From positions 60,825,311 to 60,889,310 of the forward strand of contig NC_081553.1 of the NCBI RefSeq assembly GCF_963082655.1: a stretch of DNA of 64,000 nt, in the 5' to 3' direction. This DNA comes from Stomoxys calcitrans (Eukaryota > Arthropoda > Insecta > Diptera > Muscidae). Positions 6,329-60,079 of this stretch are shown in pieces (positions within the stretch are counted from its first letter, which is position 1; the number at the start of each line of letters is the position of its first letter). The translations under genes and the position numbers were made by a program. The notes under the pieces are model-generated. The model searched no databases. It was not told the DNA's origin and saw nothing but the letters and a program-made list of their open reading frames with translations.

Positions 6329-7606
6329 AAGATTTTGCTGAAACTTTTTAGTAGACTGCTCTACCAGGATTTAGTTATAGAAATCGTCTGTGCCATGCTG
6401 AAGGGTATATAAGTTTCGGCCCGATGTTTGTTTCATTCTTTTGCCTCCAGCAATCATTCGAATTCCCTACAACTTTCATAGAAATTGGTTCTCATCAGGT
6501 ACAATTTCAATTGAATTTTCCCTGTAGACCCAACGACCTGTTTCCTTTTATTAACATTTGTGTCCTTCTCAAAGTCCTTGCATATCATTGTTGTGCTTCT
6601 TTTCTCTCGTTTACTTCCCTTTGTTATTGAAGCTTCAACTTTGCTACTTTGTTACATTTCCATTTAGTTCTGTTTGCCAGGCACTCTTGTTACGATTGTC
6701 CTTTACGATGTATCTTTGTGTGTGTGTGGGGGTTTTTGTTGCATTGCGTTTTTTCATTTGCATAAACTTTTATTTTATTTGAGCTATCCCGCACTTGGGG
6801 ATTTGTGTTACTGATTTTTAGTGGCCCTTTGGATTTCTTATGGATCTACGTTGCCCAACATCCCACATTGGCTAATGGCAAAGTGGCCAAATAGAGTCAT
6901 AGAGATTGCTAGGTCCTTGCAGGATGCCATTTTTATTTTGTTCACTAAGGTGGGGATGTGCTGCCATTAGAGAGAAACCATCATCATCATCAGTAACAAC
7001 CGACCTCCTCCTCCACCTCCACTCAGTAGCCAACCTTTGCTACTTTATCAGTCAATACCTCGCCAACCTAGTTTTGTCCAAGTTGACGGCTGGGGGAGGT
7101 GTGCGGTGTACTCGCCACAGTGATTCCACACAGCTGCTTGAAATTCAATACCTTTTGTTCTTTGCCTTTATTTTATATCGTTTTATTATTATTTGGTCTG
7201 ATTGTTAAATTTTATGCATGGCAGGACAATGTCATCTGTAATTGTAACTCTAACCGTATCTGCGTGTTGGGATTTCTTCATTTTGCGTCATTGCCATAAA
7301 AAAACAACGAGACAGGAAAAAGGAAACAACTTTTAGTGCAGAATTTAAATTTGTTCGAAATTGATTTTCTCTTTGATGAGGTCAATTGCCATTAGGTTGC
7401 ATTCGAATGAATTTCTTTCGTTTTTATGCGGGCACCCTTATTTAGACAAAGGTAAATGGCAGATTATTACAGGAAACAATCAAGAAAGACATTGGAGGAC
7501 CACATAGAAAGGGGCAGAATTTTGCTACTTGGCATTTTGTTTCTTGTTTTCTATGATACACCTTTGGCCGGAACTGATTAGAACATTTACAATGGAAGAG
7601 CATATA
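6329..7606. other. noncoding stretch, nothing recognised
   Basis: AT-rich sequence with a short GT microsatellite near 6716-6730 and several poly-T tracts. Short open frames here are low-complexity (Phe/Leu/Ser/Cys rich) and have no recognisable motif. A remnant gggtatataagtttcggccc at 6403-6422 resembles the family A terminal block. Confidence 0.5.
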
Positions 7607-7841
7607 TTGGGTTGCCCAAAAAGTAATTGCGGATTTTTCATATAGTCGGCGTTGACAAATTTTTTCACAGCTTGTGACTTTGTAATTGCATTCTTTCTTC
7701 TGGCAGTTATCAGCTGTTACTTTTAGCTTGCTTTAGAAAAAAAGTGTAAAAAAGCATATTTGATTAAAGTTCATTCCAAGTTTTATTAAAAATGCATTTA
7801 CTTTCTTTTAAAAAATCCGCAATTACTTTTTGGGCAACTCC
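7607..7841 (+). mobile_element. mariner MITE, copy 2 (right end eroded)
   Basis: The left end is TTGGGTTGCCCAAAAAGTAA preceded by TA. The interior matches the copy at 53221, with the block gttatcagctgttactttta. The right terminus reads gggcaactcc instead of gggcaacccaata, so the outer end and the TA are lost. Confidence 0.88.
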
Positions 7842-25904: not shown

Positions 25905-27892
25905 ACACACCTAAGCCTGTGATCGGCTTGTTGTGGGCTCTAAACACTATAAAGTAACCCCTAAACAGAAAATTTTAAGTTAGGCACTCTGAGCTTCTCA
26001 CAAAATCCTTAATTGTTTTCCATACCACTCCTCTAAGTTGGTTCATGTCTGATATCGTGTCCCCACCTACAGTTGTCTGTGTCTGTTAGCCGCGAAAGCA
26101 GTACAATGACATATGAAGTGCTCCAACGTCTCATCATCTTCCCCGCATGCCCTATCACATGCCGCACCGATTTAACATAAGCGCGCTCGCAGTTCTATGT
26201 GTCCCCTTCTGATACCAAAAGCTATACTGACCTCCTTCTTACTTCCTTTGAGTAAAAGTCTCGTCCTTAGCCTGTAATCGGCTTGTTTTGCGCTCTAAAA
26301 ACTATAAAAAACCTCTAAAAAGAAAATTTTTAGTTAGGAATTACGTGCTACTTACAAAATCCTTAATTGTTTTCAATACCACTCCCCTAAATTGGTTCAT
26401 GTCTGGTATTGTGTCTCCACCTAACAGCCGGTATCTGTTAGACGCTAAAACCGGGCAATGACAAAAGAAATGCTCCAACGTGTCATCATCTTCCCCGCTT
26501 GCTCTACACATGCTATAACTTGCCGCACCGATTTTACATAAGTGAGCTCGTAGTCCCATGTGTCCCGCTATGATACCAATAGCTTTACTGACTCACGATC
26601 TGGATCCCCCCATAGGCTATTCGCCATACTACCGACCGTTTCGCTGTTCCACAATGTTACGCATGCGTATTCGTCGCCCACTCCCTGAACTCTGACTGCG
26701 TCGACCCGACAGGCTTCGGGTTAACCAAGTTTATTGACGGCAGTCCTCTGGCCTTCATCGCCAAATCGTTTGCCCCTTCATTTCCGCCTACTCCGTTATG
26801 GTCCTGCACCCAAACGATGCGGATTTTACCATCCCCAGAGAAGGCTTTAATCTCCTTCTTACACTGCAAGACTGTTCGTGATCTTACCGTCCTGGTTGTT
26901 ATTGCCCTTATGGCAATTTTACTGTCGGTAAAGATGTTCAGACTCGACGTCCTCGCGTTAGCACTACACCTCTTCACTCATTCCCTAATCGCCCGGATCT
27001 CCGCCTGCAGGACCGTATTATGGTCAGACAGTCTAAAACAGATATTAGTCCCTGGGTTTTCAATGTAAACCCCCAGGCCACTCTGTCCTCTAGCTTTGAT
27101 CCATTCGTGTTAAATGATTTTCCAGATGGCAATACTAGGGTAACGTCAATCCAAAATTGTGCCCATGGCAGCAGTGCCTCACATCGACCTCAAGATTCAT
27201 CTCAGGTATCCGATCGGAAACCTCTTCCCTTTCTTCCAGGTTTCCTATCGTCTCCTCGATTATACCGCGATGGTATGAGCTGCTCTTCTCCTCAATCCAT
27301 TGTCCCAGCACCTTTAGTCTCATAGCCGCAGTGGTTACCTCACATTTAATCGATATGTCAATGGGTCGGATATCTAGAATAGTCCTCTAGTGGGCGTGGT
27401 CCTCATCGCTCCGCCTATGCCAAGAGAACGTGTTCTCTGAACCAGTTGTATGGTCCTTATGTAGCACTTTTTCTTCATAGCAGTCCATCAAACTATTGAG
27501 GCGTAAGTAAGTATTGGTCTAATCACGCTCCTGTATTCACTGATTCAGGGCCCATTTCGAGCCTACGGCCCGTCTACATAGTGCCCAACATCTGTGAGCC
27601 TTCTCAGTACGCTCCTGAATGTGACACCTCCAATTCAATTTCCTGTCAAAGATCACACCTAAATATTTGACCTTGTCGGATATCGAAATCGTCTTATTAA
27701 GGTGACGTGGTGCGTTAAATTGGCCCACCTTCGTCTTCCTCGTGAACAGGCATATTTCAGTCTTCTCTAGGTTAACATTGAGACCTCTGGGTCTAGCCCA
27801 ATCATATGCCATATGCAAGACCCTTTCGGCCCTACTGCATAGCTCGTTCGAATCCTTACCTCTTAGAAGTATTATAAAATCGTCTGCGTAGC
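25905..27892 (-). pseudogene. Jockey-type LINE ORF2 (RT end, RNase H, C-terminus), 5'-truncated
   Basis: The minus strand opens with the RT catalytic motif YADDFIILLRG (YADD codons at 27879-27890), then LNVNLEKTEICLFTRKT and VKYLGVIFDRKLNW, normal RT thumb wording. RNase H follows (FTDSKIAIRAI, KIRIVWVQDHNGVGGNEGANDLA at about 26940-26750), then a C-terminus GLRAHLCKIGAASYSMCRA..EDDDTLEHFFCHCP near 26560-26460 with the Cys/His pattern of Jockey-clade tails. The last ~360 bp are duplicated (gccgcaccga at 26161 and tgccgcaccg at 26521). Frames shift several times. The 5' cut, exactly before YADD, meets a family A array. The plus-strand fragment at 16530-17560 is the same family. Confidence 0.88.
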
Positions 27893-29072
27893 AGGTCCAA
27901 ATCGGTCTATAATCTAATATAGCTCCCATATAAACCGATGTTCTGATTTGATTTCTTGAGCCCTTACAAGACACAATTTTTGTCCGATTTGGCTGAAATT
28001 TTGCATGCGGTGTTCTGTTATGATTTCCAACAACTGTGATATGTGCGGTCCGAATCGGTCTATAAGCTGATATAGCTCCCATATTAACTGATCTCTCGAT
28101 GAGTCACTAGAGGGCGCAATTCTTATCCGATTTGTCTGAAATTTTGTATGAGGTATTTTGTTACGATTTCCAACAATTGTGCTAAGTATGTTTGAAATCG
28201 GTCCTTAACCTGATACAGCTGTCATATAAACCGATCTGGGGTCTTGATTACTTGAGCCTCTAGAGGGCGCAATTATTCTCCGATTTGGCTGAAATTTTGC
28301 TTGAGTTGTTTCGTTATGGCTTCCAAAAATTGTGCTAAGTATGGTTGAAATCGGTTCATATCCTGATAGAGCTGTCATATAAACCCCTTCTTAGGTCTCA
28401 ACTTCTTGAGCCTCTAGAGGGCGCTGTGCTAAGTGTGGTTGGAATCGGTCCATAACCTGATATAGCTGTCATATAAACCGATCTAGGGTCTTGATTTGTT
28501 GAGCCTCTAGAGGGCGCAGTCGGTTTATATGATACAGCTGTCATATAAACCGATCTGGGGTCTTGATTTGTTGAGCCTCTAGAGGGCGCAATCGGTTTAT
28601 ATGATACAGCTGTCATACAAACCGATCCAGGGCGCAATTCTTATCCGATTTGGCTAAAATTTTGCGTGAAGTGTTTTGTTTTAACTTCCAACAACTGTGT
28701 CAAGTATGATCTAATTCAGTCCATATCATGATATAGCCGCCATATAAACCGATCTCCCGATTAGACTCCTTGGGGTTCTTATCCAATCTGGTTGAAATTT
28801 TGCATATGTCATTTTGGTATGACTTCCAACAACTGTTCCAAGTATGGTTTAAATCGGGATATAAACTGATATAGCTGCCATATAGACAAATCTCCCAGTT
28901 TGACTTCTTGAGCCTCTGGAGGGCTCAATTATTACTCGAATTGCCTGAAATTTTGAAAGTGACGTTTTTCAATGACTGGTATTTTTCTATTTGAAAAAGT
29001 CATTCAAAGAACTTGACAAATGCCATCCATGGAGTAGGGTTAATAAGATTCGGCCCCGCCGAACTTGACAAT
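27893..29072 (-). mobile_element. family A element, inverted, tail missing
   Basis: Inverted ~153-bp units (gatatagctcccatattaac, tcttatccgatttggctaaa, gagcctctagagggcgcaat) run up to the head at about 29010-29072 (tgccatccatggagtagggt, gattcggccccgccgaactt). The interval 28430-28630 contains a shorter, partly deleted unit repeated about three times. Confidence 0.8.
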
Positions 29073-30725: not shown

Positions 30726-33700
30726 CAAAAAACCAGTAAAAATATGCTAAAATTGGTCTAGCCGAATTTTATATACCATCCGCCATGATTCGAAGAATTT
30801 TAAATGGACCTACGTGCTCAAAATTCTCAATATTCTTAAAAAAATAGGGAAAAAATTGCAATCGTCAAAATTAGGTGAAAAATGTATACCTTATGCCCCA
30901 TAGCAGCTATATCGGAATATGTTTCGATGTGGAGCAAATACTTATAAGTACAAGTCATTGCTCAATAGTGTATAACAATCTATTGATCTTTTTAGTAACT
31001 ATATCTAAAAATAAACAGATCTGAACCATATACGACAGGGATGTCGAAAAGCCTAACATAAGTCACTGTGTCAAATTTCAGTTAAATCGGATTATAAATG
31101 CGCCTTTTTTGGGGCCAAGACTTTTAATCGAGATATCGGTCTATATGGCAGCTATATGTAAATCTTTATCAATCTAGACCCAATTGCAGAAATATATGGA
31201 GGGGCTTAACTTAATTAATTCGGCAATATCGGACAATAAATGCGCCTTTTTTGGGCCCAAAGCCTTAAATCGAGGAATCGGCCTATATGGCAGCTATATC
31301 CAAATCTGGACAGATCTGGACCAAATTGAAGAAGAATGTCGAAGGGCTTAACACAACTTACTGTCCAAAATTTCGGCAACATCGGACAATAAATGCGCCT
31401 TTTATGGGCCCAAAACCTTAAATCGATAGATCGGTCTATATGGCAGCTATATCCAAATCTGGACAGATCTGGACCAAATTGAAGAATAATGTCGAAGGGC
31501 TTTACACAACTCACTGTCCCAAAATTTCAGCAAAATCGGACAATAAATGCGCCTTTTATGGGCGCAAAACCTTAAATCGAGTGATCGGTCTATATGGCAG
31601 CTATATCCAAATTTGAACCGATCTCTGCCATATTGCAGAAGTATGCCGAAAAACCTAACAAAACTCACTGTCCCAAATTTCAGCAAAATCGGACAGTAAA
31701 TGCGCCTTTTATGGGCCCAAAACCTTGAATCGCGAGATCGGTTATGTGGCAGGTATATCAAAATCTGAACAGATTTGGGCCAAATTGCAGAAAAATGTAG
31801 AAGAGGGTAATACAACACACTATCCATAATTTCAGCAAAATCGGGTAGTAAATATGGCTTTTATGGGCCTAGGACCCTGAATCGGCGGATCGGTCTATAT
31901 GGGGGCTATATCCAAATCTGAACCGATCTGAGCCAAATTGAAGAAGGATATCGAAGGTCCTAACACAACTCACTGTCCCAAATTTCTGCTAACTCGGACA
32001 ATAAAGGCGCCTTTTACAGCCCCACGGCCTTAAGTCAATAGATCGGTCTATATGGCAGCTATAGCCAAATCTGGACCGATCTGAGTCATATTGCAGAAGT
32101 ATATCGAGGGGCTTGACTTAACTCACTGCCCTAAATTTCAGCTAAATCGGACAAAAATGCGCCTTCTATGGGCGCAAGACCCCAAATCGAGAGATCGGTC
32201 TATATGTCAGCAATATCTAAATCTGGACCAATTTGGGCCAAGTTGCAGAAAAATCTTGAAGAGCTTTATACAACTCAATGTCTCAAATTTCGGCGAAATC
32301 GGACATTAATTGCGCCTTTTATGCGCCCAAAACCTTAAATCGAGAAATCGGTCTTTATGGCAGCTATATCCAAATCTGGTCAGATTTGGACCAAGTTACA
32401 GAAAAATGTCGAAGGGCCTAACAGAACTCAATGTCCCAAATTTTAGCAAAATCGGGTGATAAATGTGGCTTTTATGGGTCCAAAACCTTAAATCGAGTGA
32501 TCGGTGTATATGACAGCTATATCCGAATCTGGACCGATCTTAGCCAAATTGAAGAATAATGTCGAAGGGCCTAGCACAACTAACTGTCCCAAATTTTTGC
32601 AAAATCGGACAATAAATGCGCCTTTTATGGGCGCAAGACCTTAAATCGAGAGATCGGTCTATATGGCAACTATATCCAAATCTGAACCGATCCGTACTAT
32701 ATTGCAGAAGTATGCCGAAAAGCCTAACAAAACTCACTGTACCAAATTTCAGCAAAATCGGATGATAAAAACGCCTTTTATGGGCCCAAAACCTTGAATC
32801 GAGAGATCGGCCATATGGCAGCTATATCCAAATCGGGACAGATCTGGACCAAATTGAATAAGAATATCGAAGGGCCGAACACAACTCGTTGTCCCAAATT
32901 TCGGCAACATCGGACAATAAATGCGCCTTTTATGGGCGCAAGACTTTAAATCGAGAGATCGGTCTATATGACAGCTATAGCCAAATCTGGACCGATCTGA
33001 CCCAAATTGAAGAAGAATGTCGAAGGGCTTAACACAATTTACTGTCTCAAATTTCGGCGACATCGGATATTAAATGCGCCTTCTATGGGTCCAAACCCTT
33101 AAATCGAGTGATCGGTGTATATGGCAGCTATATCCGAATCTTTACCGATCTGAGCCAAATTTAAGAATAATGTCGAAGGGCCTAACAGAACTCAAAGTCC
33201 CAAATTTCAGCAAAATCGGATGATAAATGTGGCTTTTATGGGACTAAGACCCAAAATCGGCGGATCGGTCTATATGACAGCTATAGCCAAATCTGGACCG
33301 ATCTGGGCCAAATTGAAGAGGGATGTCGAGTGGCCTAATATAACTCACTGTCTCAAATTTTAGCAAAATCGGACAATAAATGCACCTTTTATGGGCCCAA
33401 AACCTTATATCGAGAGATCGGTCTATATGGCAGCTATATCCAAATCTGGACCGATCTGAGCCAAATTGAAGAAGAATGTCGAAGGGCCTAACACAACTCA
33501 ACGTCCCAAATTTCAGCAAAATTTGACAATAAATGCGCCTTTCATGGGCGCAAGACCTTAAATCGAGAGATCGGTCTATATGACAGCTATATCCAAATCT
33601 GAACCGATCTGGGCCAAATTAAAGAAAGATGTCGAGTGGCCAAACATAACACACTGTCCTTAATTTCAGCAAAATCGGGTAGCAAATGTGGTTTTTATGG

Positions 33701-34015
33701 ACTTAAGACCCTAAATCAGCGGATCGGTCTATATGACAGTTATGGTCAAATCTGAACCGATCTGGGCCAAATTAAAGAAGGATGTCGAGTGGCCTAACAC
33801 AACTCACTGTACCAAATTTCAGCAAAATCGGATAGAAAATGTGGCTTTATGGGCCTAAGACCCTAAATCGGCAGACCGATCTATACGACAGCTATATCCA
33901 AATCTGAACCGATCTGGCCCAAATTGAAGAAGGAGGTCGAAAGAACCTAACACAACTCAGTGTCCAAAATTTTAACAAACTCGGACATTAAATGCGCTTT
34001 TTATGGGCTTTTTAT
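30726..34015 (+). mobile_element. family B element with ~21-unit tandem array
   Basis: The head accagtaaaaatatgctaaa and gccgaattttatataccatc precede about 3 kb of ~153-bp units. The phrase tgcgccttttttgggcccaa starts at 31241, with tgcgcc repeating at 31394, 31548 and 31701. Each unit includes aaatcgagagatcggtctat, ggcagctatatccaaatctg and cctaacacaactcactgtcc. The array fades at about 34015 and no clean tail is visible. The short open frames on the minus strand (repeats of FDILLQFG and RFGYSCHIDRS) only mirror the unit. Confidence 0.9.
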
Positions 34016-36285: not shown

Positions 36286-37188
36286 AATAAACAAGTAAAA
36301 AGGCATTAAGTTCGGTCGGGCCGAACTTTGGATACCCACCACCTCGGGTATATATGTAAACCCCCTTTCGGCTTCAGACGCCTTACCGGCAGATCGGTCA
36401 ATATGCCAGCTATATCTAAATATAGTCCGATCTGAACCATATTTGGGTCCTTTGTTAGGAGGCGTAAAACTACTTATTGTTTCCAATTTCAGCGAAATCG
36501 GTTAAAAAATAAAGCATTTATGGGCTTCAGACCCTTTATCTGGAGATCGGTCTATATGGCAGCTATAACTAAATATAGTCCGATTTGATTCATATTTAGG
36601 TCAGATATTGGGGGGATTAAATTAACCCTCCGTTTCAAATTTCAGCAAAATCGGTTAAAAAATGAAGCATTTATGGGCTTCAGACCCTTTATCTGGAGAT
36701 CGGTCTATATGGCAGCTATAACTAAATATAGTCCGATTTGATCCAAATTTAGGTCAGATATAAGGAGGCTTAAGATAAACCTCTGTTTCAAATTTCAACG
36801 AAATCGGGTAATAAATACAATTTTTATGGGCTTCAGATCCTTTATCGGCAGATCGGTATATATAACAGCTATATATAAATATAGTCCGATCTGAACCATA
36901 TTTGGCTCCTATGTTAGGGGGCGTAAAACCACTCAATGTTTAAAATTTCAGCAAAATCGGCTAAAAAATGAAGCATTTATGGGCTTCAGACCCTTTATCT
37001 GGAGATCGGTCTATATGGTAGCTATAACTAAATATAGTCCGATTTGATCCATATTTAGATAAGATATGAGGAGGCTTAAGATAAATAAAGCTTTTATGGG
37101 CTTCAGACCCTTTATCGGCCGATCGGTCTATATGGCAGCTATATCTGAATATAGTCCGATCTGAACCATATTTGGGTCCTATGTAAGG

Positions 37189-37193
37189 GAGCG
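37189..37193. repeat. left target-site duplication of Transib (GAGCG)
   Basis: GAGCG precedes the left CACAGTG. The same five bases follow the right end at 42543-42547. Five-bp GC-rich duplications are the known Transib pattern. Confidence 0.95.
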
Positions 37194-38624
37194 CACAGTG
37201 GGCCAAATGGCAAAAAAATTGGAAATAAGTCTACAACTTTTTATCTGTTGATTTTAGCCATACAAAATGTTCTAGACATTTGTAGAGGAGGACATAGGCT
37301 TTCAGAAAAGTGCTGTTGTTGGTCCATATCTTTAATACAGGGTGAGCTACAGGGTGTCAAAGTTGACCACTTTTGACTTCTCCAAGCTTCTGGGGGCCAT
37401 AACTTTTGATCTACTCAACCGATTTACATGATTTAGGACTCTAGAGAAAGAGCTTGACAAGATCTAAAAAACTTATGCATAAAGTACCATGCCATCGTGT
37501 ACTGTTAAGGAGTTATGAATTGTTTAATTTTAAAATATGAAAATTTGGCCTTGGTTTTTTTCAGTGTTTTTTAAATAACTCCGTCAATTTTAAAGCTATA
37601 AACTTCATACTTCACACAAATTATGCCAGCATATGTGTGCATAAAATACAAAAGGAATCACGTGAATATCTTTGGCGGTTTAAAAATGGCATCGTTTTCA
37701 ATATGAAAAATATTTTTTTTGTCAAAAAATTGCAAAATTTTTCAAAAAAGATACTCCCATTTCCTTTAAGTTTTCGCAAACTTTGGCCGTCAAAGCATTA
37801 TCATTTCTTTCCATTTTCACAAAGTCGAGGTATTAAGAAAAGTTTTAAGTGCTAATTTGGCTAATTTCGATATCAAACAACACCGTTATCTTAAGACCAA
37901 AATGGCCAATTTTTTTACTAAACTTCAAAAGTTTCTCACTGGAAAAAAAGTTCCACGGGGATTTTTTCGCTTTTTTTGAACTTAAATGAAAGCTTAAAAT
38001 GTTCCCAACATTTTAAGGTATGTCTCGCCATATCCTAGCCATAAATGAGATCGTAGCGATCAAAATACTGAAAAAAGTCAATTTTCAAGTAGTGCTATAT
38101 TCATTGCTAAAAAACAAGTATTACGTCACATTTTATTGCAAAGATGTTAAATAAACTTTTATTTGGTAACACTTCTTCTACAAAACACAAAAAGAATCAT
38201 GGAAATATCTCTATTCTATTCCATTTTATGGAACCGGCAATAAAAAAGTCAATTTTTCAAAAAAGTCGAATTTCCCAAATTTTGTTTTTGTTGTCCTAAT
38301 TGCACATGACACACTATAGCCATATTTACGCAACATACCTTATCGTAAAGGAAATTTTCATACCTTTCCAACAATGTATAAAACATTTCTCAACTCGGAT
38401 TCTATCTACTCTAAAATTCATTTACACTTCATTAAACTCTATATAAAAATGTCTATTTGTGAAATGGAACCTTATATGGGGCCTACACTAAAACATTGAT
38501 AGATTTGCCCAGGGTTTACAATACAAATGTGTTAGAATAAAAAAAGGTCTCCTGCCAAAGTTTAAAAAAATTGGAATAAAAATATGTGTTTTAGAGCGAA
38601 AACACTTCGCATCGGCGTGCGTTT
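37194..38624 (+). repeat. Transib left terminal inverted repeat, 1431 bp
   Basis: It begins CACAGTG and runs to gcgtgcgttt at 38624, after which it diverges from the right arm (gtatag versus atatgt). Homopolymer lengths near the inner end (runs of seven A at two places) are the same in both arms. A 72-codon frame at 37637-37855 has an exact mirror at 41881-42099, consistent with a repeat rather than a gene. Confidence 0.95.
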
Positions 38625-39020
38625 GTATAGTACCTACATCTATTTTTAATGTAAGCTGATGATTTTTGAATAAAAAGTAACCTAGAAATATACCTGCATA
38701 TATATATATATTTGTGTTAAGATTTGATGCAGACAAATGTTACCTGTTTCGCTATGTCGAATTCCCAGGAAATCCACCGTATCAATGAATGTGAAAAAAC
38801 CTACCCATAAAAAATTCATTGTCATTTTTTTTAACCAAATTCGAGTCCAGGTAAATAATTATAGAAGAGTAAGTAAAAAGAGGCACTTTGGACCCCTTTT
38901 TACGATTGCGTCTGATACCTGAAATGGGTCATTAATTGTGAATATATTGCATAAATATTTGAACAAAATCCAAATTTTCTTCATTATATTTTGTAGAGGC
39001 GTAAAGGACATTTATAAGTT
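38625..39020 (+). promoter_or_regulatory. Transib 5' leader with a possible intron
   Basis: This unique stretch lies between the left repeat and the transposase ATG. Donor-like CAG|GTAAAT (GT at 38851) or AGA|GTAAGT (GT at 38869) and a pyrimidine-rich acceptor ending TTTTGTAG at 38996 would define a 128-146-bp intron in the leader. An in-frame TAA at 39015-39017 means the reading frame cannot extend upstream through the spliced leader, so the ATG at 39021 stands. No TATA box can be singled out in this AT-rich sequence. Confidence 0.4.
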
Positions 39021-41063
39021 ATGGAAGTCATACTGAAGTATTCCACTCTTTCGAAAATTGTATGGGACATCAAAAATGATTCCAAATCATACACGGAGTC
39101 ATTTAAGGAACTTGTTTACACTTTGGACCACATATATGGAATAAGGCTAAATAAAGACGCTTTAGACAAACTTGAAAAATTCTACAAATCATTTGAGAGA
39201 AGGTTGCCAGAATGTTCATTCGCAAAAATCAAGTTTTTCAAAATGTATGAGAAGTGGCTGAAATCGGATCTACTTATTGAAATTAAACCGCTGATTCCCG
39301 GCCGGCCTAGCAAAGCATACGACGAAGTTACGGAGAAAACCAAAAAGAAAAAACAAGAGGAACTATTGGCGGCACATCCGCCAAATTTAATAAAAGATAC
39401 GTTCAAAACAGCATTGTTAAAAACACAACCAAAAAATGTTGGACGAATTGTCGATGTTTTACCATTAGCATCTCCGAAAAGGGTAAAGAGAATGGTAGAA
39501 AGTATTCCAACTCCAAAATCGACTACAGAATTCACGGAGGAAGATGCACTGGCCCTGATTTTGAACCTAGGCCTCTCAAGAAACAAATACTCAACAATGA
39601 GGAAGGCTCTTCGTGAAAAAGGATGGGGTTGTTTACCCTCAAAACATAAATTGTACAACACCAGGACGAAAATGGTGCCATCAAATATATACGTGGACGA
39701 ATTAAAAGCAAGAGTGAAACTTGCTGATCTTGTTGAAAATACAGCTGTTAGAATTATTTCTAATTTTACTGAAGAACAGTTGAACACATGTAATAATTCC
39801 GAAGTGGTTTTGATCAGCAATTGGGGTTGTGATGGATCATCTGGATTTTCCGAATATAAGCAACAAACAGAAATAGATACCAACTTCGCATCAATTTTCA
39901 TGGCATCATTAGTACCATTGAGAATGAGATTGTACAAGGACCAATCTTCATCATCGAAAGAAAATGCATTTCAAGATATATGGATAAATAGAACACCTGG
40001 GTCAAAATATTTATGTCGCCCAATTCGGTTTGAGTATACAAAGGAAGACCGGAACACAACACGATCTTTGGTGAACGAAATAAAGGAAGAAATTGCTGCA
40101 TTACCCATGATTGTTATAAACCAATTGGGAAGAAATATAAAAGTTTCGTTTCAACTACAACTCACTATGATCGATGGAAAGGTGGCAAACGCATTAACTG
40201 GCGTTATGTCCAATTGGAGATGCAATATTTGTGGCAAGAAGAATGGGCAATTCGAGGACAAGTCTGATGAAAATTTAGTAAACGAAAATGCGCTCAATTT
40301 CGGTATTTCGCCCCTGCACTGTAGAATTCGATTCATGGAGTATTGTTTGCATTTATCGTATGACCTTAAATATCGGACTAGCCCTGGAAACCGCGATGTC
40401 TCTGCTAGAAACAACCAAGATCTTCACAAAATGAGGCAGGAAGAGAAGAATCGAATCCAGTTGGAGTTTAAACAAAAGGGACTTATAATAGATAAACCTC
40501 TTTACGGATACGGAAGCACAAATGATGGCAACTCGGCAAGGCGGTTTTTTGAGGACCCCGTATCGACATCTAAAATAACCGGTCTTGATGAACACTTGCT
40601 AAGACGATTCAAAGTGATTTTGGCTGTAATCAATAGCAAAAAGATGATAAATTCAACCAAATTTGAAGCTTATAGTAATGACACAAAAAACATTTTATCT
40701 GATTTATATTCGTGGAAAGCTTTAACACCGACAGTACATAAAGTCTTACATCATGGCAAGGAAATTGTGGAATACAACATACTTCCGTTAGGAGAACTTA
40801 CAGAAGAAGCTCAGGAATCCCGTAATAGAGATGTTAAACAGTTCCGGCTTTTCAATACCCGAAAGAGCACCAAATTTAACCAAAATTATGATTTACTTCA
40901 ATATTTATTGTTATCGTCTGATCCGGTACTATACAGCATCAGAACTAAATGGCTACCAAAAATATGTGACGATATAGATAAGGACGATCCCGATGCCATT
41001 CAAATTAAAGAGCTTTTAAATTTTGATACCTTAGATTATTTGGTAGAGAATAAAATCAAATAA
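39021..41063 (+). CDS. Transib transposase (RAG1-like DDE recombinase), 680 aa
   Basis: This nuclear DNA transposase is predicted to bind and cut the CACAGTG-type ends and insert the element with 5-bp duplications. The Transib family is the accepted relative of the RAG1 recombinase core. Visible family marks: the block NWGCDGSSGFSEYKQ with first catalytic Asp D271; TMIDGKVANALTG with second Asp D385; a zinc-binding pair WRCNICG (C401, C404); the HKVLHH block (H573-H578) in the position of the RAG1 zinc-ligand histidines; and QESRNRDVKQFRLFNTRKS with the probable catalytic Glu E599, matching the ESGNK..FR wording of RAG1 and of other Transibs. The N-terminal ~260 residues include a Lys/Pro-rich stretch (about 90-160) and are less conserved. 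No internal stop or frameshift is present, and the length is normal for the family. An in-frame TAA lies just upstream of this ATG. The stop is followed within ~50 bp by the right inverted repeat. AATAAA at about 41573 and 41599 could serve polyadenylation. Codon use is AT-rich like the surroundings. Confidence 0.96.
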   Translation: MEVILKYSTLSKIVWDIKNDSKSYTESFKELVYTLDHIYGIRLNKDALDKLEKFYKSFERRLPECSFAKIKFFKMYEKWLKSDLLIEIKPLIPGRPSKAYDEVTEKTKKKKQEELLAAHPPNLIKDTFKTALLKTQPKNVGRIVDVLPLASPKRVKRMVESIPTPKSTTEFTEEDALALILNLGLSRNKYSTMRKALREKGWGCLPSKHKLYNTRTKMVPSNIYVDELKARVKLADLVENTAVRIISNFTEEQLNTCNNSEVVLISNWGCDGSSGFSEYKQQTEIDTNFASIFMASLVPLRMRLYKDQSSSSKENAFQDIWINRTPGSKYLCRPIRFEYTKEDRNTTRSLVNEIKEEIAALPMIVINQLGRNIKVSFQLQLTMIDGKVANALTGVMSNWRCNICGKKNGQFEDKSDENLVNENALNFGISPLHCRIRFMEYCLHLSYDLKYRTSPGNRDVSARNNQDLHKMRQEEKNRIQLEFKQKGLIIDKPLYGYGSTNDGNSARRFFEDPVSTSKITGLDEHLLRRFKVILAVINSKKMINSTKFEAYSNDTKNILSDLYSWKALTPTVHKVLHHGKEIVEYNILPLGELTEEAQESRNRDVKQFRLFNTRKSTKFNQNYDLLQYLLLSSDPVLYSIRTKWLPKICDDIDKDDPDAIQIKELLNFDTLDYLVENKIK

Positions 41064-41111
41064 TACAAAACTAAAATGCTTTTTTATTTTGGGAGTAGCT
41101 AATATACATAT

Positions 41112-42542
41112 AAACGCACGCCGATGCGAAGTGTTTTCGCTCTAAAACACATATTTTTATTCCAATTTTTTTAAACTTTGGCAGGAGACCTTTTTTTATT
41201 CTAACACATTTGTATTGTAAACCCTGGGCAAATCTATCAATGTTTTAGTGTAGGCCCCATATAAGGTTCCATTTCACAAATAGACATTTTTATATAGAGT
41301 TTAATGAAGTGTAAATGAATTTTAGAGTAGATAGAATCCGAGTTGAGAAATGTTTTATACATTGTTGGAAAGGTATGAAAATTTCCTTTACGATAAGGTA
41401 TGTTGCGTAAATATGGCTATAGTGTGTCATGTGCAATTAGGACAACAAAAACAAAATTTGGGAAATTCGACTTTTTTGAAAAATTGACTTTTTTATTGCC
41501 GGTTCCATAAAATGGAATAGAATAGAGATATTTCCATGATTCTTTTTGTGTTTTGTAGAAGAAGTGTTACCAAATAAAAGTTTATTTAACATCTTTGCAA
41601 TAAAATGTGACGTAATACTTGTTTTTTAGCAATGAATATAGCACTACTTGAAAATTGACTTTTTTCAGTATTTTGATCGCTACGATCTCATTTATGGCTA
41701 GGATATGGCGAGACATACCTTAAAATGTTGGGAACATTTTAAGCTTTCATTTAAGTTCAAAAAAAGCGAAAAAATCCCCGTGGAACTTTTTTTCCAGTGA
41801 GAAACTTTTGAAGTTTAGTAAAAAAATTGGCCATTTTGGTCTTAAGATAACGGTGTTGTTTGATATCGAAATTAGCCAAATTAGCACTTAAAACTTTTCT
41901 TAATACCTCGACTTTGTGAAAATGGAAAGAAATGATAATGCTTTGACGGCCAAAGTTTGCGAAAACTTAAAGGAAATGGGAGTATCTTTTTTGAAAAATT
42001 TTGCAATTTTTTGACAAAAAAAATATTTTTCATATTGAAAACGATGCCATTTTTAAACCGCCAAAGATATTCACGTGATTCCTTTTGTATTTTATGCACA
42101 CATATGCTGGCATAATTTGTGTGAAGTATGAAGTTTATAGCTTTAAAATTGACGGAGTTATTTAAAAAACACTGAAAAAAACCAAGGCCAAATTTTCATA
42201 TTTTAAAATTAAACAATTCATAACTCCTTAACAGTACACGATGGCATGGTACTTTATGCATAAGTTTTTTAGATCTTGTCAAGCTCTTTCTCTAGAGTCC
42301 TAAATCATGTAAATCGGTTGAGTAGATCAAAAGTTATGGCCCCCAGAAGCTTGGAGAAGTCAAAAGTGGTCAACTTTGACACCCTGTAGCTCACCCTGTA
42401 TTAAAGATATGGACCAACAACAGCACTTTTCTGAAAGCCTATGTCCTCCTCTACAAATGTCTAGAACATTTTGTATGGCTAAAATCAACAGATAAAAAGT
42501 TGTAGACTTATTTCCAATTTTTTTGCCATTTGGCCCACTGTG
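41112..42542 (-). repeat. Transib right terminal inverted repeat, 1431 bp
   Basis: It is the reverse complement of 37194-38624, ending tggcccactgtg at 42542. It has the same length as the left arm. Confidence 0.95.
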
Positions 42543-42547
42543 GAGCG
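42543..42547. repeat. right target-site duplication of Transib (GAGCG)
   Basis: It is identical to 37189-37193, and the family C unit continues immediately with ttaaactactcaatga. Confidence 0.95.
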
Positions 42548-43484
42548 TTAAACTACTCAATGATTTAAATTTCAGCAAAATCGGTTAAAAAATAAAGCAT
42601 TTATGGGCTTCAGACCCTTTATCTGGAGATCGGTCTATATGGCAGCTATAACTAAATATAGTCCAATTTGATCCAAATTTTAGGTCAGATATTAGGAGAC
42701 TTAAGATAAACCTCTGTTTCAAATTTCAACGAAATCGGGTAATAAATACAGCTTTTATGGGCTTCAGACCCTTTATCGGCAGATCGGTGAATATGCCAGC
42801 AATATCTAAATATAGTCCGATCTGAACCATATTTGTGTCCTTTGTTAGGAGGCGTAAAACTCGGTCTATATGGCCGATATAACTAACTATAGTCCGATTT
42901 GATCCATATTTTGGTCTGATATTAGGAGGCTTAAGATAAACCTCTGTTTCAATTTTCAACGAAATCGGGTAATAAATGTAGCTTTTATGGGCTTCAGACC
43001 CTTTATCGGGAGATCGGTCTATATGGCAGCTATATCTAGACATAGTCCGATCTGAACTATATTTGGGTCAGATGTTGGGAGGCCCAAAAATACTCCTCAG
43101 TGTTTAAAATTTCAACAAAATCGGATGATGAAAATTAAGTTTTTATGGGCATTAGACCCTTTATCGGAAAATCGGTCTATATAGTAGCTATATCCAAATA
43201 TGGTCCGATTTTGCCCGTTCAAGAACTTAACCAGCGTGCATCAAAAATACGTATCTGTGCCAAATTTCAGCTGAATATCTCAATTTTTAACGTCTGTAGA
43301 GTGATTTCAACAGACGGACGGACAGACGGATAGAGGGACAGACGGACATCGTTAAATCGTCTTAGATTTTAACGCTGATCAAGAATATATATACTTTATA
43401 GGGTCGGAAATTGATATTTCGATGCGTTGCAAACGGAATGACTAATTGAATATACCCCCAATACTACGGTGGTGGGTATAAAAC

Positions 43485-49404: not shown

Positions 49405-51533
49405 TCGAACAAGTAAAAGCATGCTAAGTTCTGCCGGGCCGAATCTTATATACCCTCCACCAGGATCGCAGTTGTCGAGTTCCATTCCCGGCATCTCTTC
49501 GTAGACAAAAAAAGGATAAAAGAAACGATTTGCTCTGCTATTAGAGCGATATCAAGATATGGTCTGGTTGGGACCACAGTTAAATTATATGTTGGAGACC
49601 TGTGTAAAATGTCAGCCAATTCGAATAAGAATTGCGCCCTTTGGGGGCTCAAGAAGTAAAATAGAGAGATCGATTTATATGGGAGCTGTATCATGCTATA
49701 AACCGATTCAGACAATAAAAAACACTTATGTTGATGGTAATAAGAGGATCCGTCGTACAAAATTTCAGGCAAATCGGATAATAATTGCGACCTCTAGAGG
49801 CTCAAGAAGTCAAGATCCAAGATCGGTTTATAGGGCAGCCATATCAGGTTATGAACCGATTTGAACCTTATCTGGCACTGTTGTTGAAAGTAATAAAAAA
49901 GTACGTAGTGCAAAATTTCATTCAAATAGGATAAGTATTGCGCCCTCTAGCGGGCTCAAGATGTCAAGACCCAAGATCGGTTTATATGGCAGCTATATCA
50001 GGTTATGGACCGATTTTAACCATACTTGGCACAGTTGTTGGAAATCATAGCGAAACACGTCATGCGAAATTTCATTCAAAGTGGATAAGAATTGCGCCCT
50101 CTAGAGGCTCAAAAAGTCTATACCCAAGATCGGTTTATATGACAGCTATATCAGGTTATGGACCGATTTGAACCATACTTAACACAGTTGTTGGATATCG
50201 TAACAAAATACGTCGTTCAAATTTTCGTTTCAATCGGATAAGAATTGCGCCCTCTAGCGGCTCTAGAAGTTAAGATTATTATATCTGGCAGCTATATCAG
50301 GTTATACACCGATTTGAACCTAACCTAGCACAGTTGTTGGAAGTCATAGCGAAACACGTCGTGCAAAATGTCATTCCAATCAGATAAGAATTGCGCCCTC
50401 TAGCGGCTCAAGAAGTCAAGTCCCCAGATCGGTATATATGGGAGCTATAGCAGGTTATTGACCGATTTGAACATAACGAAGCACAGTTGATGGAAGTCAT
50501 AGCAAAACACGTCGTGCAACATTTCATTCCAATCAGATAAGAATTGCGCCCTCTAGAGGCTCAAGAAGTCAAGACCCCAGATCGGTTTATATGGCAGCTA
50601 TATCAGGTTATGAACCGATTTCAACTATTCTAAACACAGTTGTTGGATATCATAACAAAACACGTCGTTCAAAATTTCATTCCAATCGGATAAGAATTGC
50701 GCACTCTAGAGATTCAAGAAGTCAAGACTCAAGATTGGTTTATATGGCAGCTATATCAGGTTATGGACCGATTTGAACCATACTTGGCACAATTGTTGGA
50801 TATCATAACAAAATACGTCGTGCAAAATTTCATTCTAATCGGATAAGATTTGCGCCTTCTAGAGGTTCAAGAAATCAAGACCCAAGATCGGTTTATATGG
50901 CAGCTATATCAGGTTATGGACCGATTTGAACCATACTTGGCACAATTGTTGAATATCATACCAAATCACGTCGTGCAAAATTTCATTCAAATCGGATAAG
51001 AATTGAGCCCTCTAGTGGCTCAAGATAAGATAAGAATTGCGCCTTCTAGAGGCTCAAGAAGTCAAGACCCAAGATTGGTTTATATGGCAGCTATATCAGG
51101 TTATGAACCGATTTGAACCATACTTGGCAAAGTTGTTGGATATCATAACAAAACACGTCGTGCAAAATTTCATTCCAATCGGATAAGAATTGCGTCCTCT
51201 AGAGGCTCAAGAAGTCAAGACCCAAAATCGGTTTATATGGCAGCTATATCAAAACATGGACCGATATGGCCCATTTACAATACCAACCGACCTACACTAA
51301 TAATAAGTATTTGTGCAAAATTTTAAGAGGCTCGCTTTACTCCTTCAGAAGATAGCGTGCTTTCGACAGACAGACGGACGGACGGACAGATGGACGGACA
51401 TGGCTAGATCGACATAAAATGTCGCGACTATCAAGAATATAAGTACTTTATGGGGTTTCAGACGAATATTTCGAGTATTTACAAACAGAATGACGAAATT
51501 AGTATACCCCCATCCTATGGTGGAGGGTATAAA
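49405..51533 (+). mobile_element. family A element, long copy (~12 units)
   Basis: The head acaagtaaaagcatgctaag, gccgggccgaatcttatata, ccctccaccagg is followed by ~153-bp units: gcgccctctag starts at 49940, 50094, 50247, 50393, 50546 and so on. One unit near 51010 carries a short internal duplication (gataagataagaattgcgcc). The tail has acagacggacggacggacag, catggctagatcgacataaa, atcaagaatataagtacttt and the hairpin tacccccatcctatggtgga with gggtataaaaa. Head and tail carry complementary TATACCCTCCACC / GGTGGAGGGTATA arms. Short open frames read repeats of AAISGYEPI and are not genes. Confidence 0.9.
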
Positions 51534-54989: not shown

Positions 54990-56320
54990 AAACAAACAAG
55001 TAAAAGCGTGCTAAGTTCGGCCGGGCCGAATCTTATATACCCTCCACCATGGATCGCATTTGTCGAGTTCTTTTCCCGGCAACTCTTTTTAGGCAAAACA
55101 GGATATAATAAAAGATTTGCTCTGCTATTAGAGCGATAATCAGATATGGTACGTTTTGGACCACAATTAAATTATATGTTGGAGACTTGTGTAAAATGTC
55201 AGCCAATTCGAATAAGAATTGCGCCCTTTGGGGGCTCAAGAAGTAAAATCGAGAGATCGATTTATATGGGAGCTTTATCGGGCTATAGACCGATTCAGAC
55301 CATAATAAACACGTATATTGATGGTCATGAAAGAATCCGTCGTGCAAAAGTTCAGGCAAATCGGATAATAATTGCGACCTCTAGAGGCTCAAGAAGTCAA
55401 GATCCCAGATCGGTTTATATGACAGCTATATCAGGTTATGAACCGATTTGAACCTTATTTGTCACAGTTGTTGAAAGTAAGAATAAAATACGTCTTGCAA
55501 AATTTCAGCCAAATCGGATAGGAATTGCGCCCTCTAGAAGCTCAAGAAGTCAAGTCCCCAGATATGTTTAGATGACAGCTATATCAGGTTATGAACCGAT
55601 TTAAACCATACTTGGCACAGTCATTGGATGTCATAACAAAACACGCTGTGCAAAATGTCATTCCAATCGGATAAGAATTGCGCCCTCTAGAAGCTCAAGA
55701 AGTCAAGACCCAAGATCGGTTTATATGGCAGCTATATCAGGTTATGAACCGATTTGAACCATACTTGGCACAGTTGTTGGATATCATAACAAAATACTAC
55801 GTGCAAAATTCCATTCCAATCGGATAAGAATTGCGCACTTTAGAGGCTCAAGAAGTCAAGATCCAAGATCGGTTTACATGGCAGCTATATCAGTTTATGG
55901 ACCGATTTGAAACATACTTTACACAATTTTTGGATATCATAAAAAAACACGTCATGCAAAATTTCATTCCATTCGGATAAGAATTGCGCTGTCTAGAGGC
56001 TCAAGAAGTCAAGACTCATGGTCGGTTTATATGGCAGCTATATCAAAACATGGACCGATATGGCCCATTTACAATACCAACCGACCTACACTAATAAGAA
56101 GTATTTGTGCAAAATTTCAAGCGGCTAGCTTCACTCCTTCGGAAGTTAGCGTGCTTTCGACAGACAGAGGGACGGATGGACATGGCTAGATCGACATAAA
56201 ATGTCGCGACGATCAAGAATATATATACTTTATGGGGTCTCAGACGAATATTTCGAGTAGTTACAAACAGAATGACGAAATTAGTATACCCCCCATCCTA
56301 TGGTGGAGGGTATAAAAACA
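54990..56320 (+). mobile_element. family A element, near-sister of 49405-51533
   Basis: The head (acaagtaaaagcgtgctaag, ttcggccgggccgaatctta, tataccctccaccatggatc) and the first units are close to those at 49405, including a shared distinctive unit with gttggagacctgtgtaaaat or its one-base variant. It has about half as many ~153-bp units. The tail ends catcctatggtggagggtat at about 56318. Confidence 0.9.
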
Positions 56321-59089: not shown

Positions 59090-59785
59090 CAATTATTCTC
59101 CTCATTACTCCGTATTCCTTACTCTTTTCTCCTTACACCTTACTCTTTACTCCTTACTCCTTACTCTTTACTGCTTACTCCTTACTTCTTACTCTTTACT
59201 CCTTACTCCTAACTTCTTACTCCTTACTCCTTAGTCCTTACACCTTACACCTTACACCTTACTTCTTACTCCTTACTTCTTACTTCTTACTCCTTACTCC
59301 TTACTTCTTACTCCTTATTCCTTACTCTTTACTCCCTACTCCTTACACCTTACTCCTAACTCCTTACACCTTACTCCCTACTCCTTACACCTTACTCCTT
59401 ACTCCTTACTCCTTATTCTTTACTCCTTACTCCTTACTCCTTACTCTTTACTCCTTACTCCCTACTCCTTACTCCTTTCTCCTTACTCCTTACACCTTAC
59501 TCCTAACTCCTTACTCCTTACTCCTTACTCCTTACTCCTTACTCCTTACTCCTTACTCCTTACTCCTTACTCCTTACTCCTTACTCCTTACTCCTTACTC
59601 CTTACTCCTTACTCCTTACTCCTTACTCCTTATTCCTTACTCCTTACTACTTACTCCTTACTCCTTACTCCTTACTCCTTACTCCTTACTCCTTACTCCT
59701 TACTCCTTACTCCTTACTCCTTACTCCTTACTCCTTACTCCTTACTCCTTACTCCTTACTCCTTACTCCTTACTCCTTACTCCTC
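59090..59785 (+). repeat. TTACTCC heptamer array (~700 bp)
   Basis: Variants (ttacacc, ttacttc, ttactct) are common up to about 59510. The array then becomes nearly perfect ttactcc to 59785, followed by four ctcct units. Variation concentrated at one end suggests recent expansion of the uniform part. Confidence 0.97.
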
Positions 59786-59810
59786 TCCTCTCCTCTCCTC
59801 TAAAATTTCT

Positions 59811-60075
59811 TCCCTTCCCTTCCCTTCCCTTCCCTTCCCTTCCCTTCCCTTCCCTTCCCTTCCCTTCCCTTCCCTTCCCTTCCCTTCCCTTCCCTTCCCT
59901 TCCCTTCCCTTCCCTTCCCTTCCCTTCCCTTCCCTTCCCTTCCCTTCCCTTCCCTTCCCTTCCCTTCCCTTCCCTTCCCTTCCCTTCCCTTCCCTTCCCT
60001 TCCCTTCCCTTCCCTTCCCTTCCCTTCCCTTCCCTTCCCTTCCCTTCCCTTCCCTTCCCTTCCCTTCCCTTCCCT
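59811..60075 (+). repeat. TCCCT pentamer array (~265 bp)
   Basis: About 53 virtually perfect tccct units. The minus strand is (AGGGA)n, with G runs of three separated by two A. Confidence 0.97.
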
Positions 60076-60079
60076 TTCC

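Follow-up and report, generated by a model that had tools for sequence, protein, structure and literature searches.

An apparently complete Transib transposon with unusually long, identical inverted arms in Stomoxys calcitrans

Introduction

Transib elements and the V(D)J recombinase descend from a common ancestor, and the heptamer of V(D)J signals has the consensus CACAGTG. To our knowledge, few apparently intact Transibs have been studied at the bench. A 64,000-nucleotide stretch of Stomoxys calcitrans DNA (contig NC_081553.1, positions 60,825,311 to 60,889,310; hereafter the window) contains, at 37194-42542, an element that raises two questions: whether it is a whole and mobile member of this superfamily, and how its two inverted ends came to be identical over more than a kilobase. 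The element is an apparently complete Transib with unusually long identical arms, and we consider it very probable that it represents a DNA transposon, full-length and possibly autonomous, which has inserted into a host tandem repeat.

Results

Boundaries and target site

The element is 5349 base pairs (bp) long. Its parts and immediate surroundings are as follows.

36370-43209, plus strand: host tandem repeat, split by the Transib element
37189-37193, no strand: left target-site duplication GAGCG, read directly from the sequence
37194-38624, plus strand: left arm, 1431 bp, identical to the right arm and starting with CACAGTG, from the arm alignment
38625-39020, plus strand: unique leader from the left arm to the start codon, with a TATA-like run at 38699-38710 (putative promoter)
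39021-41063, plus strand: Transib transposase, 680 amino acids (aa), without internal stop
41064-41111, plus strand: short unique stretch from the stop codon to the right arm
41112-42542, minus strand: right arm, 1431 bp, reverse complement of the left arm, ending with CACTGTG
42543-42547, no strand: right target-site duplication GAGCG

The CACAGTG ends and the flanking GAGCG duplications named in the original prediction are both present: the heptamer starts the element at 37194, the complementary CACTGTG forms its end at 42542, and GAGCG stands directly outside each tip. Exact heptamers within the element are confined to these outer tips. Both tips are alike, the heptamer being followed by an 11-bp spacer and then by the A-rich block AAAAAAATT (the left one from 37212), so that they resemble the recombination signal sequence-like tips of Transibs in their CAC-starting heptamer and A-rich block; a proper nonamer is not clear. 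The heptamer with A7 following within 8-24 bases, a pattern composed after the tips had been seen, has two matches in the whole window, one at each tip, where 0.04 would be expected. The spacer equals none of the published lengths (12, 20-22 and 23 bp), yet it lies within 1 of 12.

The host repeat occupies 36370-37079 (period 153) to the left of the element and 42630-43209 (periods 230 and 158) to its right. When the flanks are joined with one GAGCG, they align without gaps to the sibling units 36401-36557 and 36860-37016, at 144 of 157 bases each, and these siblings are a paralogous empty site. The gapless match therefore fixes the ends of the element and shows that GAGCG was duplicated on insertion, giving a 5-bp target-site duplication, as Transibs make, that has been checked against sibling units. 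GAGCG is GC-rich, a trait shared with the hopper target. Tandem arrays of the ~153-bp unit are dispersed in the window (31041-34008, 36370-37079, 49602-51303, 55189-56045 and others), many of them with a TATATGGCAGCTATATC-like stretch; one array, 36370-37079, is the insertion target.

The transposase and its relatives

The predicted uninterrupted transposase is borne out, the frame 39021-41063 being open from ATG to stop over 680 aa. The protein is a RAG1-core-like DDE transposase. Its residues D271, D385 and E599 align with D126, D225 and E436 of HzTransib, with D271 and E599 found in 30 of 30 aligned rows and D385 in 29. When the protein model is superposed on HzTransib (structures 6pqn, 6pqr, 6pqx and 6pqy), the two are identical at 36% of 472 residues, and HzTransib residue 21 falls on residue 168 of the model; the fold comparison covers mainly residues 167-647. 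The protein is nearer to HzTransib than to any RAG1 or RAG1L matched. Its N-terminal part (39021-39515) comprises ~145 residues that have no HzTransib counterpart and are common to most aligned relatives; it is mostly helical in the model and carries a conserved GRP-x-K and a basic motif, and the Pfam scan gave no match before residue 165. The Pfam model PF26100 is listed in the database for a protein identical to ours (P0001) and is absent from the Pfam scans made here.

The region 37000-42800 is overlapped by six other open reading frames (ORFs; 80-251 aa), every one on the minus strand and three antisense to the transposase. The element has one long gene and no RAG2-like partner, as expected of a Transib, with no domain scan for RAG2 made on the six small ORFs. 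The protein, its structure, the 5-bp duplication and the heptamer ends all support the membership in Transib that had been proposed.

A protein search, which scored the 7997 candidates sharing most words, yielded 127 matches at E 0.001 or better, of which 120 are listed. One of these relatives, P0001, is identical over 680 residues and lies on 3 contigs of another source. Organism names accompany 12 of the 120 listed relatives, and these 12 are all from insects. In a quick tree of 88 of the 120, with RAG1 not among its rows, the window protein falls in a nine-row group (Shimodaira-Hasegawa-like approximate likelihood-ratio test support, 99) inside a 22-row clade (100), and is nearest to P0003 (67% identical across 543 columns). 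Among the relatives P0002-P0021, 18 of 20 have a longest contig of 2224-2884 bp, which fits breaks at long repeats and equally any repeat edge, and was not used as evidence. At the DNA level, viral contigs gave 3 pattern matches with the transposase and 47 with alignment A1, none confirmed, and no match to the 29-base tip; genome contigs of bacteria and archaea gave 24 with alignment A1, again none confirmed. The DNA collections consisted of viral, bacterial and archaeal records and are weak evidence regarding insects.

The inverted arms

Equal arms of 1431 bp without a mismatch had been predicted, and base-by-base alignment agrees. Over the longer repeat, 1434 of the 1435 positions of 37194-38628 are matched by the reverse complement of 41108-42542, and the sole difference, at arm position 1432, leaves an uninterrupted identical run of exactly 1431 bp. 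By comparison, 20 simulated sequences (6.7 kb, with the dinucleotide make-up of the window) had longest exact inverted matches of 12-20 bases. The window holds 104 inverted pairs of at least 40 nucleotides within 12 kb; among the longest 25 of these, the next after the arms is 240 bp long at 95% identity. The 1435-bp repeat ends 392 bp before the start codon on the left, while on the right it begins 44 bp after the stop codon and the identical run 48 bp after it.

The arms contain no long reading frame, the longest open stretch being 104 codons. No direct-repeat family of at least 25 nucleotides was found in them, and self-comparison turned up nothing beyond brief, weak similarities (29 bp at 83%, for instance); within an arm, exact direct repeats reach at most 15 bases, a length matched in 5 of 300 simulated arms and slightly above chance. 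Past the inner arm edges, the unique leader and the 3' stretch share no similarity above shuffles (131 of 300 scored as high), and therefore no older, longer arm is visible. The first plus-strand AATAAA after the stop codon, at 41573, lies within the right arm, so the transposase message probably ends there.

The 13-mer AAAAAAATTGGAA occurs exactly at 37212-37224 and 38564-38576 on the plus strand and at 41160-41172 and 42512-42524 on the minus strand, that is, close to both edges of each arm, outer and inner, and in one orientation within an arm. With at most one mismatch it has 6 matches in the window against 1.2 expected, and only two of the four exact ones are independent, the arms being copies of each other. 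It might be a second transposase-binding site, or a chance occurrence in A-rich DNA.

The absence of differences in 1431 bp bounds arm divergence at 0.21% (95% upper bound). Given a Drosophila-like mutation rate of ~3e-9 per site and generation, the arms would have been last identical at most a few hundred thousand generations ago. This age dates the last homogenisation or the insertion, whichever came later, and nothing older if the arms exchange sequence. The recent insertion put forward in the original prediction is consistent with these figures.

Other features of the window

Two ~240-bp copies, 95% identical and in opposite orientation, lie at 2571-2810 and 7599-7838 with TTGGGTYGCCCAAAAAGT-type inverted ends, and TA adjoins three of their four ends; the pair resembles a mariner-type miniature inverted-repeat transposable element (MITE). 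At 59101-60076, ~98 copies of CTCCTTA (89% matches) are followed by ~54 perfect copies of CTTCC. An ORF of 181 aa at 27537-28082 on the minus strand lies partly in a tandem-repeat area, and its middle resembles a reverse-transcriptase fragment (YADDFIILLRGK).

Discussion

A possible course of transposition

A cut-and-paste reaction of the RAG1 type could account for the present arrangement. The DDE transposase would bind the two identical ends, each consisting of CACAGTG with the A-rich block, and nick at the heptamer border; cutting would then proceed by hairpin formation on the flanking DNA, and the excised element would be pasted with a 5-bp stagger into a GC-rich 5-bp target, leaving the GAGCG duplications. 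The hairpin chemistry is inferred from HzTransib and RAG, purified HzTransib transposase being described as forming hairpins on the flank and blunt transposon ends (PMC6941560). Since the arms do not differ, the transposase must see the two ends as alike, and no rule based on asymmetric ends, such as 12/23, can apply in the outer 1431 bp. The element may be active, as the original prediction proposed.

The arms may have grown, and may stay identical, through DNA repair after excision, in which one end is copied on the other as template. Such repair-coupled copying seems to us the best explanation of the long identical arms, a plausible one of which we are less sure than of the nature of the element. 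Recombination and conversion between long terminal inverted repeats (TIRs) have been proposed for Galileo (PMC3573991). A stronger form of the idea is that this Transib lineage maintains kilobase arms as a working feature: after each RAG-type excision, repair from a sister element and strand exchange between the arms would keep them identical, let them grow until they meet the coding region and leave the ends indistinguishable to the transposase. We consider this stronger form unlikely.

Several observations weigh against the interpretation of the element as a mobile Transib with repair-made arms. The 64-kb window contains no further copy of the arms or tips, and none was found in the viral and prokaryote records searched, which are weak evidence; evidence for mobility of the family thus comes from a single insertion. 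Nor is full activity certain: the protein has K->N at 267 and T->S at 505, both at residues constant in the other 29 rows, and its end branch in the tree (0.38) is the longest of the nine-row group (0.027-0.33 for the others). Transib TIRs are described with heptamer and nonamer-like parts and symmetric 20-22 bp spacers, some with 12/23 asymmetry (PMC8355894), and the 11-bp spacer does not match the symmetric ones. GAGCG fits neither CNNNG, the target pattern of Transib MITEs of H. armigera (PMC7764229), nor CCANTGG, the target motif of hopper (PMC3276498). As for the repair origin, the identical arms give no sign of which end served as template.

Alternative explanations

The sharpest rival concerns the arm part of the explanation only. 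It holds that the family is short-ended and that this copy alone has long arms, one end having been copied onto the other, shortly before insertion, in one inverted duplication or break-repair event. Perfect identity over 1431 bp is what a very recent event would leave, and five listed D. melanogaster Transibs have TIRs of 33-45 bp (PMC10299278). Nevertheless, the description of Hztransib as having 'long TIRs' (PMC1852546) indicates that long repeats can occur in the superfamily. Moreover, the duplications lie outside both arms, which shows that the element and both arms were inserted as one unit and means that an element with such arms could still move. We regard a one-off origin of the arms as a genuine possibility, but doubtful.

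A composite, in which two opposite copies of a small non-autonomous element captured a transposase gene in the manner of a bacterial composite transposon, would explain two identical inverted blocks around a unique coding centre. Each arm would then, however, need a transposon end on its inner side too, and heptamers with at most one mismatch are not close to 38624 or 41112, the nearest being at 38884 and 40610 and the exact ones at the outer tips only. The protein between the arms is, besides, a Transib transposase, which suits the CACAGTG tips. This origin is highly improbable.

Assemblies classically go wrong at perfect long inverted repeats, and the second arm might accordingly stem from a fold-back read left unresolved or from the erroneous duplication of one end. 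Yet both arms end in the heptamer, GAGCG and the host repeat, which would not be expected of a false second arm, and removal of the element with one GAGCG restores a repeat unit whose gapless match to two siblings argues against a misassembled arm. We find an artefact more improbable still. Finally, a Foldback/Galileo-type element of another superfamily, Transib-like at its tips only, can practically be dismissed: inverted arms of ~1 to 1.6 kb are known in Galileo (PMC3573991, PMC4168063), and the arms of such elements hold internal tandem repeats, but the present long arms have no tandem repeats that we could find and are accompanied by a 5-bp duplication and a Transib transposase.

Comparison with known systems

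With an open transposase, exact duplications and identical arms, this 5.3-kb copy is a good candidate for an active Transib beside Hztransib, and would allow possible links between end symmetry, arm length and hairpin-type excision to be studied.

Hztransib of Helicoverpa zea (GenBank DQ788836) shares with it a Transib transposase, the aligned DDE triad, a 5-bp duplication (GCTCG in Hztransib) and TIRs described as long, their length being given only in a figure (PMC1852546). Long inverted repeats thus have a precedent in the superfamily. Hztransib measures 3518 bp with a 489-aa deduced protein as printed (PMC1852546), compared with 5349 bp and 680 aa here, and the present protein has the ~145 extra N-terminal residues.

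The D. melanogaster elements hopper and transib1-4 belong to the same superfamily and make 5-bp duplications (hopper and transib2; PMC3276498), but they measure 1435-2883 bp, with TIRs of 33, 43, 42, 45 and 40 bp, respectively (PMC10299278; hopper2 is omitted there for want of data). The present arms are more than 30 times longer than these. TIRs of some tens of bp are a usual, non-defining trait of Transibs from which this element departs at 1431 bp. As originally suggested, long arms may be a derived form. Elsewhere, TIRs of 13-57 bp are described for Transib MITEs of Helicoverpa (PMC9033116), imperfect TIRs for Transib elements of Anopheles gambiae (PMC3442997) and 13-bp TIRs for TransibSU-1_PM, a RAG-like element of the bat star (PMC4411706). 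The original prediction that Transib TIRs are usually far shorter than 1.4 kb thereby holds for D. melanogaster, but not for the whole superfamily in view of Hztransib. No Transib with arms stated to be this long was found in the literature, most subscription journals and Repbase being outside the search.

RAG-like transposons (ProtoRAG and protostome RAGL) carry convergent RAG1L and RAG2L genes (PMC7204232), whereas one long gene only is present here. Galileo of Drosophila resembles our element in its kilobase-scale inverted arms, between which recombination and conversion have been proposed (PMC3573991, PMC4168063). It belongs, however, to the P superfamily and makes 7-bp duplications, in contrast to the Transib affiliation, 5-bp duplication, open transposase and 1431-bp arm identity of the present element. 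If the arms are a family trait, very long inverted repeats would have arisen in the Transib superfamily too, as has been argued for Galileo in the P superfamily.
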